A stretch of 64,000 bases of DNA from Bacteriovoracaceae bacterium (GTDB lineage: Bacteria > Bdellovibrionota > Bacteriovoracia > Bacteriovoracales > Bacteriovoracaceae): NCBI GenBank assembly GCA_023701435.1, contig JAMPXB010000003.1:186001-250000 (forward strand), given 5' to 3'. This document shows positions 6,665 through 58,125 of this stretch, piece after piece (within the stretch, counting starts at the first letter, position 1; every line of letters starts with the position of its first letter). Both the position numbers and the translations under genes were made by a program. The notes under the pieces are model-generated. The model did no database searches. It worked only from the letters and a program-made list of their open reading frames with translations, and had not been told where the DNA came from.

Positions 6665-8158
6665 ATGCTTAAGTTCTTGAAATTATTATTCGTTCTTCCA
6701 TTTATCCTTACATCTCAAATAGCTGCTGCCACTTTTAAGCTTTCCGAGGAAAGTTTAGATCAGGTGGCCCTTAAGGGTTCTCCACAAATTGATCAGATAG
6801 AAGCGGCTTTTTATAATGCTGCGGTTGAAGAAGGGGAAGAGTCTCAGAAATACTCGCCTGAGCTTTTTGGCCAGGCCTCATACTCACAAACAGAGGAAAG
6901 ATCGCTCATTTTATTCCAACCTGTATTCACTCCGATTAAGCAGGCACGTCTGGGTGTGCAGAAAAAATTTAAAGAAGGCCTTGATACCAGTGCTTATGTC
7001 ATGACTGATCAAAGATCTGCTCAATCTGCTTTTGTTGGAAAGCTGGCCGATGCCACAATGACGACGTTGGCCTTCACCGTCCAGATGGATCTTTGGAAAA
7101 ATATTTTAGGAAGGCTCAGCAAAGCTGAACTTGAGTCGGCGGCACTTGAAAAGAAAAGGGCCCAGATTGAAAAAGATATTCAGTTAAAAGCATTCAAAAT
7201 TTCTCTCAGAAGAGTTTATTGGTCTTTGGTCGCCAATAATGAAGCGACCAAGATTTCTAGAGAACTTTTAAAAACGGCCAAGTCACAGTTGGAGGAATCT
7301 AAGCTGCGACTAAAAAACGCCGTGGCAGAAGCTGATGAGGTTGCCAGGTATGAGGCCCAGGTGGCATCCCGCGAGGGAACTCTCTTGTATCTGGAATATC
7401 AGCGAGAGCTTTTTTTGAAGCAGTTACGAAATCTCTTACCAGAACTTGCCGCTCACGAAATAGAACTTGAGAAGTATGATCTGCAAAAAAATATAACTGA
7501 AGTCATTGCCTGTACTGCCACTATTGCCCAACAGCGAAAAGTTCCCTATCAGTACACTCATTACGATGAATCGGTCGCACTCCTTAGACAAATTAAGAGT
7601 AACAATGCCTTGATTAACTCTCGCTACGCTGATGCTGATGTGAAACTTTTTGGAACACTCAAGTCCACCGGTATTGGTTCAGAAACCATTAACGATCGCC
7701 TGACTCGCGGAAGTTATGGGGAATCAATAAGTGATCAACTGGAAAATAATAGAACGGGATTTGAAGTCGGAGTGAACTTTGTTTTGCCTTTAGGAGAGGT
7801 GAAGGAAGGGACCCAGAAAGTTAAAGAACTCTATGATGAGAAGAGACTGCTTAATTTGATTAATGGAACCAATGTCCAGGTAGAGACGACGCATCTTCAG
7901 TTATCCAGGTCCGTCATGCTTTTAGCTGATGTTATCCGTACCCAGAAAGTAAGTTCGGAGCAGCTTTCAAAAAGACTAAAACTCATGCGCCGAAAATATG
8001 AGCAGGCAAGAGTCGGTGTTGATGAAATCGTTTTTGATCAGGACGCCTTACTGAATTCCGAACTGAACACCATTGATACCCAATTGCAGATTCTTAATAC
8101 GTTATTTGACTATCTGGTCATTTTTACTGAAACACCTTGTTCGTTTAACAGGAACTAA
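6665..8158 (+). CDS. TolC-family outer-membrane efflux channel
   Basis: This 497-residue protein has a signal peptide ending near 'SQIAAA' and long heptad-rich helices ('KSQLEESKLRLKNAVAEADEV', and a matching second repeat near residues 435-475), the helical-hairpin design of TolC proteins. It forms the outer-membrane exit duct of a tripartite pump. The RND transporter gene begins three bases after its stop and a TetR regulator follows. No periplasmic adaptor gene is present in the operon, which is unusual. The ribosome binding site is weak. Confidence 0.85.
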   Translation: MLKFLKLLFVLPFILTSQIAAATFKLSEESLDQVALKGSPQIDQIEAAFYNAAVEEGEESQKYSPELFGQASYSQTEERSLILFQPVFTPIKQARLGVQKKFKEGLDTSAYVMTDQRSAQSAFVGKLADATMTTLAFTVQMDLWKNILGRLSKAELESAALEKKRAQIEKDIQLKAFKISLRRVYWSLVANNEATKISRELLKTAKSQLEESKLRLKNAVAEADEVARYEAQVASREGTLLYLEYQRELFLKQLRNLLPELAAHEIELEKYDLQKNITEVIACTATIAQQRKVPYQYTHYDESVALLRQIKSNNALINSRYADADVKLFGTLKSTGIGSETINDRLTRGSYGESISDQLENNRTGFEVGVNFVLPLGEVKEGTQKVKELYDEKRLLNLINGTNVQVETTHLQLSRSVMLLADVIRTQKVSSEQLSKRLKLMRRKYEQARVGVDEIVFDQDALLNSELNTIDTQLQILNTLFDYLVIFTETPCSFNRN

Positions 8159-49375: not shown

Positions 49376-51115
49376 ATGGATTCGGCCTTGAAATTAAATA
49401 CAGATTGGGACGTGCTGGTAAAAGAGGTGAGTGAAGTCATCACCAAGATTACCGGCAACGTCATGGAAGATAAGCAAAGACCAATGATTGAGTCTCGTTT
49501 AAAAAGACGCTGCCTTGATTTAAAGATGTCTTCTCCCATTGAGTACAAACAATTCTGGAAACGGCATCAGGATCAAGAAAATAAAATTCTGATCGGACTG
49601 CTTACCACTCACTTCACTTCTTTCTTTCGCGAATTTTCTCATTTTGAATGGCTGGCAAATGAACTTCCGGCCATTGTTCAGAATGTGCGTAAAGAGGGTC
49701 GTAAAACCATCACGATCTGGTCGGCAGCTTCTTCTAAAGGTCAGGAAATCTGGTCTTTATGCATGTGGCTTCAGCACTATCTGCCCAAAATTGACCCTTT
49801 CATGGATTTCCATGTCCTTGGAAGTGATATTGACAGTGTTTCAGTTAAAGAAGCTGAAAATGGTGTCTATCACCGACGTGAACTTGAGACGGCCCCCCGG
49901 CATTTATGGGAAGGGCATTGGGTTCGGGGAACAGGTGAGATTTCCGACTGGTATAAAATTAAATCAGATATGAGAAAGCACGCCAGTTTTAAGGTCATGA
50001 ACCTGCTGGATATTTCTTTAAGTAAAGATCAGGCCTTCGATATTATCCTTTGTCGAAATGTACTTATTTATTTTGATCGAAAGAACCAGGAGAAGATTGT
50101 TCTCTCTCTTTTGAAACACCTGAGTCCAATGGGTACTCTCATTACCGGTTTGAGTGAGTCTCTTGGCGGTTACGGTCTACCTGTTAAGGGTGTGGCCCCT
50201 TCAGTTTATAAACTTCAAAGTGCTCCGGTCATAGAGTTGCCTAAAAAGGTCCAGCCTCAGGTTGAGACTTTACCGGTGCCTTTGAAGGTTTTTTGTGTCG
50301 ATGATTCGGCCACCATTTTAAATATCCTTAAAAAAATCCTGAAAGCTCCTCAGTTTGAGGTCATCGGAACGGCCAGTAATGGTCTTGATGCCCTTGAAAA
50401 ATTAAAGGTCTTAAAACCAGATGTGATTACGCTGGATATTCATATGCCAGAAATGGATGGACCGACTTTCCTTAAAACTTCCGGAGTTGCCTACAGAACA
50501 CCGGTGATTGTCGTCAGTTCTGTCGGTCGCGATCATGAGCCGCTGATTAGTCCAATGAAAAGTCTTGGAGTGGTGGACTTTGTCGAAAAGCCCACGCTTA
50601 CCAACATAACGGAAATCGGGGAAGAGCTCGTACAGAAAATAAAAATGGGATGGTTAAATAGAAAGAATGTTGCCTCATCCAAATCTGTGGTCACTTCAGA
50701 TACCCAATCAAAAAAACGCCCATCGGGAATGGTTGTTTTTAATTTTGGTTCAGGTGATGAATTGAGATTATTGCGTGTCCTTGATGAACATGATTGGGAG
50801 AGTGATCATCTGGTCTTCCGATTCAATGGAGCGAGTTTCCCCGTGAGCTTTAAAGAAAGAATACAGCTACCACTGAAGAGAGCAGCAAAAATTGATCTTG
50901 TGTCCCTTAATGAGCGGACTCCTTTTTCCAGCGCTCCAGTGGTCTGGTTGTGTTTTAGAAGTGGGGATTTTCAACAGCTGAAGGATAAAAGAAAGAAACA
51001 TGAATTCATGGTGCTGGAAGAAGGATCGCCTGAATTTATCGTGACAGATGCCAGCGATATTTCTCCTGCCACTTCTTTTAATTATCTGGTTGATAAATTT
51101 TTCAGGGGAGAATAA
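49376..51115 (+). CDS. CheR methyltransferase fused to CheB-type receiver and degenerate esterase domain
   Basis: The 579-residue protein has a CheR domain (about 1-285: 'THFTSFFRE', 'DIILCRNVLIYFD'), a receiver (about 302-425: acidic pair Asp309/310, phospho-acceptor Asp354 in 'TLDIHMPEMDG', Lys405 in 'FVEKP') and a 130-residue tail. The receiver matches CheB receivers ('VVSSVG', 'VDFVEKP'). The tail aligns by pattern with the first half of a CheB esterase but lacks the catalytic Ser, His and Asp ('FGSGDE' where GSSTGGT is expected). The SAM loop 'SAASSKGQE' also departs from the CheR consensus. It would methylate chemoreceptor glutamates. An AGAGGA site precedes the ATG; cheB overlaps its stop. 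Confidence 0.85.
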   Translation: MDSALKLNTDWDVLVKEVSEVITKITGNVMEDKQRPMIESRLKRRCLDLKMSSPIEYKQFWKRHQDQENKILIGLLTTHFTSFFREFSHFEWLANELPAIVQNVRKEGRKTITIWSAASSKGQEIWSLCMWLQHYLPKIDPFMDFHVLGSDIDSVSVKEAENGVYHRRELETAPRHLWEGHWVRGTGEISDWYKIKSDMRKHASFKVMNLLDISLSKDQAFDIILCRNVLIYFDRKNQEKIVLSLLKHLSPMGTLITGLSESLGGYGLPVKGVAPSVYKLQSAPVIELPKKVQPQVETLPVPLKVFCVDDSATILNILKKILKAPQFEVIGTASNGLDALEKLKVLKPDVITLDIHMPEMDGPTFLKTSGVAYRTPVIVVSSVGRDHEPLISPMKSLGVVDFVEKPTLTNITEIGEELVQKIKMGWLNRKNVASSKSVVTSDTQSKKRPSGMVVFNFGSGDELRLLRVLDEHDWESDHLVFRFNGASFPVSFKERIQLPLKRAAKIDLVSLNERTPFSSAPVVWLCFRSGDFQQLKDKRKKHEFMVLEEGSPEFIVTDASDISPATSFNYLVDKFFRGE

Positions 51116-52467
51116 TGGAATTCTTTCTTGGTAAAATTATTCAAGGTCATACAGGTTTATTGCAGTTCACTCTTCCTGATAATGTTGTGCTTATCTGGAA
51201 AGATTGCTCCCCGGCAGAAGCCGTTATTTGTGAAACCCATGAAGATGTACCGCACAATTGGGCAAATCAAAAGAGTGTGCCCTGGAAAATTTTTGGAACA
51301 TTTGAACGCATTAAAAATATTTTTCCGCAGTTCTCAATTCCCACAGGCTCCAAAGTGATTGGTCTTGAGCCCGGTGCTTCGATTCAGATGGCTATTGAGA
51401 AAAATCTCATTCGTTTCATGGGAAAAAGAAAAAAGAGAGCGGTCATTGTTGATGACTCAGCTACTATCCGTAAACTTTTAAAACACATTATTTCTTCATT
51501 TGAAGGATGGGATGTGGTGGATGAAGTGGAGAGGGCCGAAGACATTTCGACCTCACTTAAAAATTATTATCCGGACCTTGTCACCTTGGATCTCCATATG
51601 GGAGAGATCAATGGGGTCGAGGCCATGAGGAAGTTTCTTGCTCCTCAAAAAATTCCTACACTCATCATTACCTCTCAGCCCAAACAATCTGGTTCTTTGG
51701 TTATGGATGCCATGGATGCCGGTGCCCTGGACTACCTTCAAAAGCCAGAGTCGGGAGGATGGGATCTTCTGAAAGATGATCTGTTACTTAAAATGGAAGC
51801 AGCACTTAAATCAAAGTGGCAGATGACCTCTACTACCAAGGCGGGTCTTCAGAATAAATCCTTTAATTTTAAACCAGAGGATTATCTGATTACTATCGGC
51901 TCTTCCACTGGCGGAACCCAGGCCTTGCAGCAAATCTTTACCAATATGCCTTCTATCATTCCGCCGATTCTTGTGGCCCAGCATATCCCTGCTGGATTTT
52001 CCAAGGCCCTGGCAGACCGCCTTAATAAGCTGTGTCCTTTTGAGATCAAAGAAGCCGAAGACGGGGATGAGCTCAGACCAAATAGAGTTCTCATTGCGCC
52101 CGGAAATCATCATATGGCCCTCAGTAAAAATGGAAAAACCGTTGAGGTGTTTCCAGGTGAACCAGTAAATCGCTTCAGGCCCTCAGTGGACGTTTTATTT
52201 AAATCAGTGGCCAAGCACTCAACTAAACACACTGTCGGTGTGATTTTAACCGGAATGGGTAAAGACGGGGCCAGTGGAATGGTGGATCTCCAGCGCATGG
52301 GTGCCTACACCATCGCTCAAGATGAAGCGAGTTGTGTCGTTTTTGGCATGCCCAAGGAAGCCATCAGACTTAAAGCAGTTGAAAAAGTTGCTCCATTAAG
52401 TGATGTGCCGGAGATTGTGATGAATCATTTAGTGAAAAAAAATACGCATTTTAAGAATGGAACTTAA
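51115..52467 (+). CDS. cheB: CheB methylesterase/deamidase with extra N-terminal domain
   Basis: A 450-residue protein. Residues about 108-230 are a receiver (Asp159 in 'TLDLHMGEING', where the usual proline is glycine; Lys210 in 'YLQKP'). Residues about 255-445 are a complete esterase with Ser264 ('GSSTGGT'), His290 ('AQHIPAGF') and Asp384 ('TGMGKDGASG'). The first 105 residues precede the receiver and belong to no domain I can name; the end, 'KVIGLEPGASIQM...KNLIRF', faintly recalls CheD. CheB removes methyl groups from receptors and is activated by CheA. Its ATG overlaps the cheR stop (TAATG). Confidence 0.93.
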   Translation: MEFFLGKIIQGHTGLLQFTLPDNVVLIWKDCSPAEAVICETHEDVPHNWANQKSVPWKIFGTFERIKNIFPQFSIPTGSKVIGLEPGASIQMAIEKNLIRFMGKRKKRAVIVDDSATIRKLLKHIISSFEGWDVVDEVERAEDISTSLKNYYPDLVTLDLHMGEINGVEAMRKFLAPQKIPTLIITSQPKQSGSLVMDAMDAGALDYLQKPESGGWDLLKDDLLLKMEAALKSKWQMTSTTKAGLQNKSFNFKPEDYLITIGSSTGGTQALQQIFTNMPSIIPPILVAQHIPAGFSKALADRLNKLCPFEIKEAEDGDELRPNRVLIAPGNHHMALSKNGKTVEVFPGEPVNRFRPSVDVLFKSVAKHSTKHTVGVILTGMGKDGASGMVDLQRMGAYTIAQDEASCVVFGMPKEAIRLKAVEKVAPLSDVPEIVMNHLVKKNTHFKNGT

Positions 52468-52521: not shown

Positions 52522-54258
52522 ATGGACGATTTTGAAATTGAATTAAAACATGACTTCTTACAAGAGGCCCGCGAGCTTCTTCAAAATACGGAGCAATCTT
52601 TTCTGGAGCTTGAGAAGGATCCTTCCAACAAGACCCTGATTGATGCCATCTTTCGCTTTGCCCATAATTTAAAGGGCACTTCAAGAGCAGTAGGTTTTGG
52701 CCAGATTGCTGAGCTCACTCACCGGGCAGAAAATCTTCTTTTGGAAATCAAGCAAGAGAAAATTTTTGCCACTGATCTCATTGTTTCAACTCTGCTTCTT
52801 TTTAACGATAAAGTTCGTGAGATGATTGACGGCCTTGAGGAAAACCTGGACGCCGTTTTTGATTGTGAGCAGTTGATGAAAGATCTCGATGCTATTATCG
52901 CCGGCGAAGCTGCTGCACCAGTTGCTACTCCTGCAGCCGCTTCATTTGAACCTGAAGTTGAGGTGGAAGTTGAAGCGAAGTCAGTAGAGTCTTTCGAGGA
53001 GCCACAAGTTGAAACAGTCGCTCAGGCGGTAGTCCATAAGTTGCCGGAGAAGAAAGAAGTTAAAAAAGAACCGCGAAAAGATGATGAAACCTTGAGAGTC
53101 TCCCTCAACAGACTTGAAGTGTTAAACAATCTGGTGGGTGAGCTGGTTATCATTCAGTCAGTGGTTGAAAGCGCTCTCGGTAAATCCGGTGAACTGAAAA
53201 CCGCCCGTTCTCTGGGGAAGCTCTGTAAGGACATTCAAGACCTTTCAATGTCACTGCGTATGGTTCCGGTAGGTCCTTCTTTCCAGAAACTTGCCAGAAT
53301 TGTGAGAGATACTTCTAAATTACTTAATAAGAAAGTGGATCTTCGTCTGATTGGTGAAGACACTGAAATTGATAAAACAGTCGCTGAAAGTTTAGGTGAT
53401 CCTCTGGTCCACATTATCCGTAATGCCATCGATCATGGACTAGAAACCCCAGCTGAAAGAATTGCCGCTGGGAAGCCTGAGGAAGGTGTTGTGGAAGTAA
53501 TGGCATTCCATGAAGGCAACTTCTTGGTCATCCAGATCACCGATGACGGCAAAGGCATTAATGGCTCGAAGCTCATCGAAAAGGCCCGTGCCAAAGGGAT
53601 CATTCCAGATTCCATGAACCTGACTGAACAGCAGGCCATCGAACTTATTTTTCACGCTGGATTCTCGACTAAAGAAGTGGTTTCTGAGGTTTCGGGAAGA
53701 GGCGTGGGAATGGATGTGGTTAAGACCAATATCGAGCAGCTCGGTGGTGAGGTTAAGGTCCGCTCTAAATTGGGAAGTGGCAGCTGTTTCCGACTGATGC
53801 TTCCACTGACTCTGGCCATTATTGATGGAATGCTCATTAAGGCCGGTGGACAGCAATTAGTGGTTCCGAAAGGGCAAGTGCAGGAAGTGATCAGACTTGA
53901 AGAAAATATGATCACTCAAATGACTGGCCGCAGACCTTATATGAATCTCAGAAACACCATTATTCCGGTGTTCTATCTGGAAGAGGATTGGGGAAGTGTT
54001 GCCACCGGTGAGAAGGCGAATATCGCCATGATTGTCAGACATAATGATCAGTCATTTGCCATCGGTATCACTGATATTATGAGACAGCAGCAAGTCGTGG
54101 TGAAGCCACCGACAAAAGAAATTCTTAACAAGCAGGGCGTGATGGGTACCACCATTTTAGGTGATGGTAAGCCTTCACTGATTATCGATCTCATAAATCT
54201 TTACTCTCGCAAGTTAAGACAAGAAATGAATAATGATTCTATGGTTCAAGCAGCCTAA
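52522..54258 (+). CDS. cheA: chemotaxis histidine kinase CheA (short form without P2)
   Basis: A 578-residue kinase: Hpt/P1 domain with phospho-His48 in 'RFAHNLKGTSRAVGF', an Ala/Glu/Val-rich linker (about 128-190), a dimerisation domain, the ATPase with 'HIIRNAIDHGLE', 'DDGKGI' and 'GRGVGMDVVKTNI', and a CheW-like P5 domain. No P2 response-regulator docking domain is seen between P1 and P3. It autophosphorylates in response to receptors and passes phosphate to CheY and CheB. AAAGGA precedes the ATG; cheW follows 18 bases later. Confidence 0.96.
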   Translation: MDDFEIELKHDFLQEARELLQNTEQSFLELEKDPSNKTLIDAIFRFAHNLKGTSRAVGFGQIAELTHRAENLLLEIKQEKIFATDLIVSTLLLFNDKVREMIDGLEENLDAVFDCEQLMKDLDAIIAGEAAAPVATPAAASFEPEVEVEVEAKSVESFEEPQVETVAQAVVHKLPEKKEVKKEPRKDDETLRVSLNRLEVLNNLVGELVIIQSVVESALGKSGELKTARSLGKLCKDIQDLSMSLRMVPVGPSFQKLARIVRDTSKLLNKKVDLRLIGEDTEIDKTVAESLGDPLVHIIRNAIDHGLETPAERIAAGKPEEGVVEVMAFHEGNFLVIQITDDGKGINGSKLIEKARAKGIIPDSMNLTEQQAIELIFHAGFSTKEVVSEVSGRGVGMDVVKTNIEQLGGEVKVRSKLGSGSCFRLMLPLTLAIIDGMLIKAGGQQLVVPKGQVQEVIRLEENMITQMTGRRPYMNLRNTIIPVFYLEEDWGSVATGEKANIAMIVRHNDQSFAIGITDIMRQQQVVVKPPTKEILNKQGVMGTTILGDGKPSLIIDLINLYSRKLRQEMNNDSMVQAA

Positions 54259-54276: not shown

Positions 54277-54756
54277 ATGGATATGTTTAACAAAGATAAG
54301 AATTCTTCAAACATGGAAACGAAGAGATTTCTCGAGTTCAAGCTGGGTGATGAAAGCTACGCAGTGGGACTTTTGAAAGTCAGGGAGGTGATTACTCCTC
54401 CTGAAGTGACCGCCATTCCTAAGGCTCAGCCTTATGTTTGTGGTTTGATTAATTTACGTGGAACAGTTCTTACCGTCATTGATCTCAGAAAAAAACTGGG
54501 CATTCGTCCAGGTCAGGATGCTTCTCAGAATGCAGTAATCATCTTTGATCTGGATGAAAGATTAGTAGGTGTGGTGGTTGATTCCATTCAGAAGGTTCTT
54601 AATATTGACGAGACTAAAATTAAGCCTGTTCCTGATTCCGACGGTCAGGGCATGGCCCATATTTTAGGAATCCTTCACCATGAAGAAAAACTGACGATGT
54701 GGCTTGATCCCAAGTCCCTGCTTGATGGATCGGCCCCACTAAAAGTAGCAGCTTAA
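54277..54756 (+). CDS. cheW: chemotaxis coupling protein CheW
   Basis: A 159-residue protein with the CheW fold: 'RFLEFKLGDESYAVGLLKVREV', 'GLINLRGTVLTVIDLRKKLG' and 'LVGVVVDSIQKVL'. It couples CheA to receptor tips. AGAGGA precedes the ATG. It stands between cheA and cheY. Confidence 0.95.
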   Translation: MDMFNKDKNSSNMETKRFLEFKLGDESYAVGLLKVREVITPPEVTAIPKAQPYVCGLINLRGTVLTVIDLRKKLGIRPGQDASQNAVIIFDLDERLVGVVVDSIQKVLNIDETKIKPVPDSDGQGMAHILGILHHEEKLTMWLDPKSLLDGSAPLKVAA

Positions 54757-54795: not shown

Positions 54796-55197
54796 ATGTT
54801 TAATCCAAATACTCCGGTTCTAGTCGTTGATGATATGTCTACCATGAGAAAGATTGTTGCTAAAATTCTTCGTGATCTTGGCTTTACCAATATTACAGAA
54901 GCTGCAGACGGCAACCAGGCCTGGGAAACCATCAATAAGGCCCCGGCACCTATCGGTCTGATTATTTCTGACTGGAACATGCCTAATTGCACGGGATTGG
55001 AACTTCTGAAGAGACTTCGCGGTGATAAAAATATCTCTCGTATTCCGTTTATTCTGGTAACAGCGGAAGCAGAACAGCATCAAGTTGCTGAAGCTGTTAA
55101 ATCAGGAGTGGATCAATACGTTGTGAAGCCTTTCAGTAAGGACGCCCTACAGGCAAAACTGGAAATGGTTCATAAGAAATACGCAGCAGCTGCCTAG
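54796..55197 (+). CDS. cheY: chemotaxis response regulator CheY
   Basis: A 133-residue single-domain receiver. The acidic pocket is Asp12/Asp13, the phospho-acceptor is Asp59 in 'IISDWNMP', and 'LVTAEA' and 'VVKPF' supply the conserved Thr and Lys. These match CheY rather than a DNA-binding regulator. Phospho-CheY binds the flagellar switch. AAAGGAA precedes the ATG. The gene directly after it is the decayed phosphatase gene. Confidence 0.95.
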   Translation: MFNPNTPVLVVDDMSTMRKIVAKILRDLGFTNITEAADGNQAWETINKAPAPIGLIISDWNMPNCTGLELLKRLRGDKNISRIPFILVTAEAEQHQVAEAVKSGVDQYVVKPFSKDALQAKLEMVHKKYAAAA

Positions 55198-55214: not shown

Positions 55215-55983
55215 ATGAAAAAGAATTTTGAAATTACAACCACTGATGAGTACCTGGTACTTAAGTTGACTGGGGATTGTAATTCCAGCAATCTAAAAAA
55301 CTTCTAAGATGAGGTAATGGAGTATATTAAAAGTCCATTACCTCATGTCATAGTTGATTGCATAAATCTTTCATCTGTCGGCCGCGAATGGGTGAGGGAA
55401 CTTTTAAGGATCAATCTATTTCTCAGAAGCTTAAGCCGGCAGATGAGATTTATCAATGTGAGTGCTGGATTAAAACAAGATCTCAGGTCACAGGGAATGG
55501 ATGATGCTTTTAAGATTGCCCCCACCATACGTGATGCTTTGGTTGAATTGGGTCTGACTCCTAAAAGAACTCTGGATACAGAATTTATCAATCCTTTTTT
55601 AAATTCAACGTTACATGTCTTGAAAGTTCAGGCCAATATCGAATCCCATGCGGGAAGAGTCTATCTTAAAAAGAAAGATGAGAAGCTTTTAGGTGATGTC
55701 TCGGGAGTCATTGGTATCGTCAGTGATTCATTCTCCGGAGCAGTGGTCATCAGTTTTTCCGAAAAAACATTTCTTAAAGTCATGAGTGAGATGTTGGGAG
55801 AAGAGTAACGGAATTAAATAATGACATTAATGATGGCGCCGGTGAAATAACCAATATGATATTTGGCCAGGCAAAATTAGTGTTAAACGAAAAAGGCTAT
55901 GGCATTAAAAGGGCCCTTCCGTCATTGAACCCTTTGAAAGTACCGCCGGAAATTTCTTTGTAGAAATCTGTCTCTCTGAATAG
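55215..55983 (+). pseudogene. decayed STAS-CheX fusion gene
   Basis: Translating from the ATG at 55215 gives a STAS-like N-terminus that meets an in-frame TAA at 55305-55307 (codon 31). The same frame continues through a STAS domain ('VIVDCINLSSVGREWV') into a CheX domain ('FINPFLNSTLHVLKVQANIE', 'LGDVSGVIGIVSD') until TAA at 55806. CheX homology then resumes one frame over ('NDINDGAGEITNMIFGQAK', with the ExxN phosphatase motif) and later in the third frame ('PFESTAGNFFVEICLSE', stop at 55981-55983). A stretch of perhaps 15-20 codons seems lost between the last two pieces near 55928. CheX dephosphorylates CheY, so the phosphatase is probably inactive here. Confidence 0.85.
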
Positions 55984-55984
55984 A

Positions 55985-57961
55985 TCAGTTTTCAGACTTC
56001 CTTTTACGGAAAGCATATTTGAAAATGATCCTGAGGTATTTGGACTCAACATTCCGTGCTAAGGCGGCCATGCGAATGGCACAATAAAAACTCACAGAGA
56101 AATTCATTATCCCAATCATAATGATACTAAAGGCCATGTTAAGCATCGATGGCCAGTATTCTAAATTCCATTCCAGCGCATTGAAGGCCAGAGTCACAGT
56201 CCCGGCAGCAAGGGTTACGTGTCTGATGTCCAGAGGAAGAGCGGTGAATTTTCCGATGATTATAGGACTGGCAAGGAAAAAAGCGATGGAGAGATTTCCG
56301 GCAATCCCTCCCATCGTTCCTGCAAAATTATCAGCAATGGAGTTGATCTGTTTTTTATTCATGATCTTGTTTAAAAATGTATTGGCCCTGATTGCCTCAG
56401 GAATATCTCTGAACACCAGCCAGTTCTCCACCCAACCGGTGATGACACTGGAGAGCCAGAGAAAAATCCCGGTGAGGATAGCAAATGGTATGGTCAGACC
56501 AGTTAAAGGATTATGCTTTTTAATGACAGTTAAGGCCTCTACGCCGGTCATAAAATGAGAACCGGTAATGAAGAACCATATCCAGTCCAGAGCGATAACT
56601 GCTGGAATGACCCAGATCAGATTGCCAATAGTGGTAATGAATTGGGAGCTGACGATTCTTTTGGTCTCAAGAGAAATCTCTTCCAGGCTTTTAGTCTGTT
56701 TAAAGGCTTCAAATTTTCGTGACAAGGCCGAAGCTGTATAGGCCGGCTGCTTGCTTGAAAGGGCCATGTGCCACTTCTGCATAACAAGAAAACTCAGGGC
56801 ATAATTTAAGAAGAAGAAAAAGCCCTCAAAGAAGAGCGGCAAACTCATCAGAGCAATTAAGAATTTGAAGACTGCTGTAAAGGCGGTCAGCACTCCGGCC
56901 CAGGTGGCGGCGACAAAGAGCTCCTTCTTCTCTTCCGGGGTCGTGGCAATGTAATGCTCGCCTTTCTCTCCCGCCCGCTCAACAATTTTTCGAGTGAGCA
57001 TGTGCAGATTTTCTTTGATGTAGGTTTTCACCCCAAGGCTTTTAATCTCATCACGAATCAGGCGGCCAATGAACTGCCCAATAATAAGAGGCTTGGCCAC
57101 GTCTCCATAGTCTTTACCTAGATAGATCAACATCTCAATACGATCCAGGATTGAATCAATTTTCTCCAGCCTGAATATGAGATCCACCGAGACCCCGGAC
57201 GATTCAATATTGTCCCGGACGGACTTTAAATCCAGTCTTGCGTTGGAAATTTCCTGCAGGATCTTGTTGGTTGTGCCACCCGAATTGATGGCCATATTCA
57301 AACGAAGAAAGCTTGATTCGTTTAAACGCTTTCCTAGGAGCCTGCGCCTTATGTCCTTTGTCGTTCCAAGAGTTGCCACCTGGGCACCCAGAATGATCAT
57401 CGCTTCTTCCCGGTCTGACTTGAGACCTTCAAAGGAGAGAGACTGTTTGGCGATAAACTCTTCAATGAACGGAAGAATGTTTTTGAAAGATGATTCGATC
57501 CATAGGGCGTCCTCTTCTTCAGTGAAGAGAATTTTAAATATCTCTGAAAGGTCCTGTTCTGAATAAGCGTCAGGCAGGATCCTTTGGATCAGACGGTTAG
57601 AAACTTCATTAAAAAATCCCTGATTTTCTGAAATACCAGTCAGGCAGTAGAGACCGACGGCCCCGCCAGAGACAAGGAGTTCCTGGAGAGTCGAAGCAAG
57701 TCCGGCCGCTTGGTCCGGATGGCGATCTAGAAATTGAAAAAGGAATCTGAGTCTGATGTCACGTGACTGAATCGGATCGGGAAGAAGACCGGAAGATTGT
57801 ACCTTCACCGGTAGTCTTACCCAGTCCATAATCTGACCGAGGGTTGCTATTCTTTCATGATATGAGTTTTGAGGATCCAATGTTGCCAGAAGGGTTGCGA
57901 GATCTGCCTGGACCAGATCCGGATTGAGTGCATACTTTAAATTTTTGATGATCTTCAGCAT
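55985..57961 (-). CDS. Gcr-family ('site-specific recombinase') membrane protein
   Basis: About 658 residues, with an N-terminal helical soluble part and membrane segments in the C-terminal half. The region 'LLVSGGAVGLYCLTGISENQ' and 'FNEVSNRLIQRILPDAYSE' matches, by memory, proteins annotated as site-specific recombinase Gcr. No recombinase catalytic motif is visible and the membrane segments argue against such a role, so the family name is doubtful. The ATG at 57961 has AGAGA upstream; a GTG 87 bases earlier (58048) is also in frame. Its end lies one base from the decayed CheX gene. Confidence 0.65.
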   Translation of the reverse strand: MLKIIKNLKYALNPDLVQADLATLLATLDPQNSYHERIATLGQIMDWVRLPVKVQSSGLLPDPIQSRDIRLRFLFQFLDRHPDQAAGLASTLQELLVSGGAVGLYCLTGISENQGFFNEVSNRLIQRILPDAYSEQDLSEIFKILFTEEEDALWIESSFKNILPFIEEFIAKQSLSFEGLKSDREEAMIILGAQVATLGTTKDIRRRLLGKRLNESSFLRLNMAINSGGTTNKILQEISNARLDLKSVRDNIESSGVSVDLIFRLEKIDSILDRIEMLIYLGKDYGDVAKPLIIGQFIGRLIRDEIKSLGVKTYIKENLHMLTRKIVERAGEKGEHYIATTPEEKKELFVAATWAGVLTAFTAVFKFLIALMSLPLFFEGFFFFLNYALSFLVMQKWHMALSSKQPAYTASALSRKFEAFKQTKSLEEISLETKRIVSSQFITTIGNLIWVIPAVIALDWIWFFITGSHFMTGVEALTVIKKHNPLTGLTIPFAILTGIFLWLSSVITGWVENWLVFRDIPEAIRANTFLNKIMNKKQINSIADNFAGTMGGIAGNLSIAFFLASPIIIGKFTALPLDIRHVTLAAGTVTLAFNALEWNLEYWPSMLNMAFSIIMIGIMNFSVSFYCAIRMAALARNVESKYLRIIFKYAFRKRKSEN

Positions 57962-58125
57962 TAATCTCTGGCTTTTTTTATATTTGATTCCTTGAAACGT
58001 TCTTTTAGATGCTAACTTTTTAAGTATAAAAAGCCCAGTTTTCAGCACTAAGAAAACCTAAATTGCTGGCAAATCCTTGTATTTTGATCCATTTTTAGCA
58101 ATGATTAAGCACCTAAGGAGTTTTT

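Follow-up and report, generated by a model that had tools for sequence, protein, structure and literature searches.

The locus

The window, by which we mean the whole stretch of 64,000 nucleotides that was analysed, is part of contig C14 of a 53-contig draft genome of 3.63 Mb with 93.6% completeness. It carries a che cluster in the order cheR-receiver, cheB, cheA, cheW, cheY and STAS-CheX; the last gene (55215-55983) is broken, and cheY lies directly upstream of it. The features are as follows (G, L and C numbers designate genomes, loci and contigs).

49376-51115, plus strand: cheR fused to a receiver domain, intact (Pfam; match to G003)
51115-52467, plus strand: cheB, intact (Pfam; relatives)
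52522-54258, plus strand: cheA, intact (Pfam; relatives)
54277-54756, plus strand: cheW, intact (Pfam; relatives)
54796-55197, plus strand: intact cheY, whose product the lost phosphatase presumably acted on (Pfam Response_reg)
55215-55983, plus strand: probable STAS-CheX pseudogene, whole extent; syntenic with the intact L046:4518-5342, L047 from 4518, and L058:4956-5783 (minus strand)
55215-55304, plus strand: first piece, STAS start, 30 codons up to an in-frame stop (identity 50% to G003, 57% to G018)
55305-55307, plus strand: first lesion, in-frame TAA (a sense codon there in three relatives)
55308-55805, plus strand: second piece, an open frame with the remaining STAS and the beginning of CheX (identity 69% to G003/G011, 60% to G018)
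55806-55808, plus strand: second lesion, frame change and stop of the upstream frame (frame reading; alignment with relatives)
55808-55924, plus strand: third piece, in another frame, bearing the CheX helix and its ExxN motif, DGAGEITN (frame reading)
55924-55928, plus strand: third lesion, deletion and frame change, located to within a few bases (alignment with relatives)
55930-55983, plus strand: fourth piece, CheX C-terminal end and TAG stop at 55981-55983 (frame reading; match to G003)
55984-55990, no strand: position at which relatives have an additional 3 kb or so, including porin and chemoreceptor genes (comparison with relatives)
55985-58048, minus strand: next gene (Pfam SpecificRecomb), convergent and abutting the pseudogene; the ortholog in G003, G011 and G018 is some 3 kb more distant

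Promoter and terminator scans stayed at chance level (7 found against 7.0 expected, and 4 against 3.2). In the tail of the CheR-receiver protein (49376-51115) some 170 residues have no Pfam match, and about 110 N-terminal residues of CheB (51115-52467) have none over the cut-off; both forms recur in G003, G011, G009, G010 and G006.

Three lesions in the STAS-CheX gene

The first-pass annotation, made from the letters alone, had described three lesions in this gene, and frame reading together with alignment to relatives bore it out, its coordinates being correct within a few bases. The ATG at 55215 opens 30 codons of STAS start that are closed by the TAA at 55305-55307, and the next stop is that at 55806-55808. 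The 40 codons that follow (55808-55927, the last one lying past the deletion) are 82% identical to G003, and the ExxN motif, which had been called still recognisable, can indeed be read in them as DGAGEITN. The deletion measures 55 nt against G003 and G011 and 58 nt against G018; placed on a model of the intact protein, the missing bases are those of the CheX core strands after the long helix. The last codons read PFESTAGNFFVEICLSE, in a further frame, and end with TAG.

When the intact G003 protein was aligned to the window it matched as three pieces, with 66% identity over residues 1-197 (one stop), 76% over 194-238 and 65% over 251-273. The E value of the set is 1e-97 and, judged by sequence similarity, the match to the pseudogene is far beyond chance. 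The domain profiles recover the copy only in part. The second piece (55308-55805) gives weak STAS and CheX matches that both stay below cut-off, the STAS profile (PF01740) reaching 19 bits against 22.6 on this longest piece alone; the CheX profile (PF13690, cut-off 27) gives 28.5 bits on the motif-bearing stretch and 21 bits on the part preceding it. The window copy, with 55-58 nt of core strands missing, does not hold a complete CheX fold, whereas the model of the intact relative does.

It could be supposed that programmed recoding, by stop readthrough and frameshifts, restores the full protein, since every piece is still recognisable. Three such events would be needed, however, and the 55-58 nt of conserved CheX core are absent from the DNA itself, which brings this idea close to refutation.

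Intact orthologs in close relatives

The gene is open throughout, at the same place, in three close Bacteriovoracaceae relatives (G003, G011 and G018), and the nearest intact genes come from metagenome bins named Bacteriovoracaceae, of the same genus as the window's genome. A disrupted frame is thus found here together with intact orthologs in synteny, as the pseudogene reading proposed by the first-pass annotation requires. That reading was said to fail if relatives encoded the pieces as separate working genes. This is not so in the three syntenic orthologs; G013 does have a separate CheX (165-aa frame) and STAS piece (114-aa frame) as neighbours, CheX first (L062 2012-2749, G013:C49).

As a synteny control, we tried the G003 frames of at least 120 codons against the window and left out matches of 45% identity or less. 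Twelve syntenic genes matched above this limit; 11 of them did so as a single match without a stop, and only STAS-CheX was broken. Nothing in this comparison suggests general assembly noise. An assembly or sequencing error, with the gene intact in the living cell, is judged very unlikely: a single gene has three lesions of different kinds, whereas 11 of the 12 syntenic genes that matched are clean, and the flanks are syntenic with relatives. On the other hand, the genome is an incomplete draft in which genes may be missing too, the conserved residues of the pseudogene are mostly kept, and a break in the cheA gene of G009 did prove to be an assembly gap.

The intact protein

The intact ortholog L046 scores 79.6 bits with the CheX profile PF13690 (cut-off 27) and 36 bits with the STAS profile PF01740 (cut-off 22.6). 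The structure predicted for an intact relative from 19 sequences (mean pLDDT 87.6, pTM 0.56) likewise consists of a STAS part and a CheX part. In a fold search, the first half found STAS antagonists, and the second found solved CheX structures with a best E of 1.4e-18; no STAS-CheX fusion was found by title among the best 50 of 899 structure matches.

The CheX domain of the intact relatives resembles the CheX family of CheY-P phosphatases (PF13690; 3iic, 6vpw, 3h2d, 1xko/1squ, 3hzh_B) in both sequence and fold, with TM-scores by target length of 0.83-0.94 in the first 13 rows and with E and N three apart on a long helix. These residues, E211 and N214, are invariant in the 13 intact rows and in the 19 rows, and the alignment and the model place them on the helix 203-226. 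A passage of PMC3641820 gives the catalytic ExxN residues of Borrelia CheX as E96 and N99. Unlike the solved members of the family, the proteins studied here have an N-terminal STAS domain, and the window copy is broken. CheC and FliY share a common fold with CheX. We consider it most likely that intact STAS-CheX dephosphorylates the CheY encoded just upstream.

The STAS half matches the anti-sigma factor antagonists (PF01740; SpoIIAA, TM1442) by sequence and fold over profile positions 6-117, but unlike the SpoIIAA-type antagonists it is fused to CheX. The column that we take to hold the switch serine of the antagonists varies among the 13 rows (Ser, Pro, Asn or Glu, for example), so that this half probably serves docking or dimerisation.

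The fusion of STAS to CheX had been put down as an unusual architecture, which does not hold for this lineage. A scan that requires one of two peptide patterns gave at least 55 loci in the genome set that encode a relative. In 18 of the 55 the match covers the whole fusion, starting no later than query residue 11 and reaching at least residue 272; two of the 18 share one bin. Two more intact fusions lie in the window's own genome. STAS-CheX is therefore a regular form in the lineage. Eight of the 18 full-length fusions are preceded on their strand by a cheY gene at a distance of up to 400 nt, L124 having no upstream sequence. In the open-licence papers searched we found no description of a STAS-CheX fusion. 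In the CheX relatives L156, L158-L161, L164, L166 and L168-L175 the match begins no earlier than query residue 114; their bins carry the labels Alphaproteobacteria, Micavibrio or uncultured proteobacterium.

Selection and the age of the decay

We compared the changes on the window and G003 branches, polarised with G018. In the long piece the window branch carries 38 changes at codon positions 1 and 2 and 18 at position 3, against 20 and 36 on the G003 branch (Fisher p 0.0012), a contrast that owes partly to the fewer position-3 changes on the window branch (18 vs 36). With all three pieces pooled, the counts are 50:30 on the window branch and 27:48 on the G003 branch (p 0.0013). No such shift between branches was seen for cheA, cheW and cheY pooled (p 0.65). 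A Tajima test on the long piece gave 26 residue changes on the window branch against 11 on that of G003 (chi2 6.08). Taken singly, the parts are weak or opposite: 7 vs 3 for the CheX part, 4 vs 2 for the third piece and 2 vs 5 for the first. The STAS part changed fastest on the window branch (19 vs 8 residues). The sequences thus indicate relaxed selection on the window branch for STAS-CheX, unlike cheA, cheW and cheY, with the qualification that synonymous sites are near saturation (pS about 0.7) and that the signal is concentrated in the long piece. Because of this saturation, and since the codon-position test was picked post hoc with the data already seen, we take the result as a contrast and not as a date.

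The shift to codon positions 1 and 2 in STAS-CheX, with none in cheA, cheW and cheY, is a further point against an assembly error. The rapid change of the STAS part also bears on the idea that a shortened product is in use, the frame 55317-55808 giving STAS and a CheX stub with a role other than dephosphorylation. This frame is open for 163 codons and has its own ATG, and the separate STAS piece and CheX of G013 indicate that the halves can exist apart. The product would, however, be without the ExxN helix and without the STAS start, and its STAS part is the very part that changes fastest; we regard such a use as highly improbable.

For the CheX part, the pairwise pN is 0.082 between the window and G003 (cheA: 0.080), 0.167 between the window and G018, and 0.134 between G003 and G018. 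Three of the 54 invariant columns covered are changed in the pseudogene, one of them at the deletion edge, and intact rows show 0-3 such changes (n = 13, leave-one-out). The low pN and the few invariant columns changed argue that the gene was constrained for most of the time since the split. Three lesions are present, yet the conserved positions are mostly kept, and so the decay must be young; the proposal that it was recent is supported by the retained motif and by these positions. The STAS-CheX feature is thus probably a true, fairly young pseudogene.

A porin-receptor segment is missing beside the broken gene

The window's cheY is 88-90% identical to those of G003, G011 and G018 (pN/pS about 0.1). 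In G003 and G018 a Porin_O_P gene comes after STAS-CheX, then a gene for a chemoreceptor with a 4HB sensor, then SpecificRecomb; G011 shows this order as well. The stops of STAS-CheX and SpecificRecomb lie about 3.1 kb (G003) and 3.0 kb (G018) apart, and in the window one base apart. What places the pseudogene at the cluster end is thus the absence of the porin and chemoreceptor genes that stand next in the three closest relatives. In the window's own genome, a 93.6% complete draft, the porin has no match and the receptor of the segment has none above 40%.

We compared the cluster with those of seven relatives, which are the best CheA matches within the genus (8-16 kb each, the G012 stretch ending inside the receptor gene), leaving out matches under 38%. 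A receptor match was found inside the orthologous cluster in all seven, although in G010, G006 and G012 it is only 39-44% and partial; among these relatives and the window's genome, only the latter is without a cluster receptor. The cheY and STAS-CheX genes are linked to the cluster in three of the seven (G003, G011 and G018). The 8-16 kb compared in each of the other four hold no cheY or STAS-CheX beside the orthologous cluster, and in G010, G006 and G012 the pair lies at another place. Since four of seven relatives do without a linked CheX, loss of the phosphatase may cost little or nothing, and the loss of the receptor is the more telling change.

The porin was found in five of the nine genomes searched (G003, G011, G018, G009 and G015) and is absent from G000, G010, G006 and G012. 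Matches to the MCP signalling domain number 6 in the window's own genome, 10 in G003, 10 in G011 and 8 in G018. The absence of both receptor and porin beside the pseudogene suggests that its decay is part of the erosion of a chemosensory unit of porin, receptor, kinase and phosphatase, in which cheA, cheW and cheY are still constrained; other genomes of the genus, however, are equal or lower in MCP matches (3 in G010, 5 in G006 and 5 in G012) and also have no porin match.

The cheA genes of two relatives appeared broken. That of G018 (L058 6740-8008, minus strand) has one in-frame TAA at a conserved place, which may be real or a draft error, and its STAS-CheX is intact. That of G009, considered as a second case of decay for an apparent deletion and frameshift, was rejected: unknown bases (N) stand at the break (L103, about 7397-7402), which is an assembly gap.

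Other CheX genes in the genome

The loss of CheX had been expected to change the lifetime of phospho-CheY unless another phosphatase exists. It is the reservation that applies here: a search of the genome, as had been advised, turned up three further intact CheX genes, namely two STAS-CheX fusions, on contigs C22 and C41, and a lone CheX on C31, which has a stretch with a chemoreceptor match some 0.3 kb away. The genome gave no match to CheC (PF04509, which we expect to detect FliY as well) or CheZ (PF04344). With three other intact genes, the loss of the che-linked CheX is probably buffered, and CheX function is probably not lost from the cell. FliM has two matches in the genome, so that flagella are likely.

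For the CheX alignment 36 loci were fetched and 28 used for making rows; L062 and L066 gave none by the motif used, and from L043 (G014) only the separate short CheX, not the fusion, gave a row. In a first tree of 27 rows, the CheX of C22 and of C31 group with genes of G003 and G011, while that of C41 has no such partner. The STAS half has a Pfam call in the C22 fusion and none in that of C41. The C41 gene (L048 4956-5777, minus strand) is an extra, fast-evolving STAS-CheX with a diverged STAS half, and lies beside a gene that, named by eye, is like valyl-tRNA synthetase.

The C41 gene might be a relocated daughter that took over the job and so freed the original to decay. Its nearest CheX domain among 24 others is that of the pseudogene (73% over 114 columns), and neither G003 nor G011, with three CheX matches each and the same set but for this gene, has a counterpart of it. 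A sister relationship to the pseudogene was, however, neither shown nor rejected (AU p 0.26, in a tree without L043_G014 and L056_G009C29), the STAS half is strongly diverged with no Pfam call, and there is no adjoining cheY. We thus consider a takeover by the C41 gene unlikely, if conceivable.

A second che cluster lies on contig C17 of the same genome (L101 4404-11670, minus strand), with a CheA that has a CheY-like end, CheW, a receptor, CheB and CheR; no CheX match was found on that contig.

Interpretation

The explanation that we favour, with a probability of about 0.85, is that the window holds a dead STAS-CheX copy which decayed with the loss of the adjoining porin and chemoreceptor genes and whose absence is covered by other CheX proteins. 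In the window lineage a stop, a frame change and the removal of 55-58 nt from the CheX core would have ended STAS-CheX function, and this loss would have accompanied that of the porin and chemoreceptor genes found next in relatives. We infer by parsimony that porin and receptor were lost in this lineage rather than never present; the order of the losses is also an inferred one. As cheR, cheB, cheA, cheW and cheY are intact, the remaining pathway, if working, probably now depends on receptors whose genes lie elsewhere, and dephosphorylation of CheY would fall to the other three CheX proteins (two STAS-CheX and one CheX alone).

A more far-reaching scenario, to which we give little credence, has the cluster in the middle of a rewiring: private receptor and porin gone, phosphatase dying, the kinase, adaptor and CheY adopted by receptors elsewhere, and the relocated, fast-evolving STAS-CheX of C41 replacing the phosphatase. 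On the favoured explanation of a dead and covered copy, the case is one of real but fairly ordinary gene decay.

The locus offers a natural loss of function, in the family Bacteriovoracaceae, of what is presumed to be a CheY phosphatase; on chemotaxis in this family few papers were found in the literature searched. The STAS-CheX fusion points to a conserved two-domain form of CheX in this phylum, and the pseudogene locus to a chemosensory unit with a porin beside its receptor. The porin placed between STAS-CheX and the chemoreceptor within the che cluster (L046 5368-8424; L058 2014-4870) merits attention.
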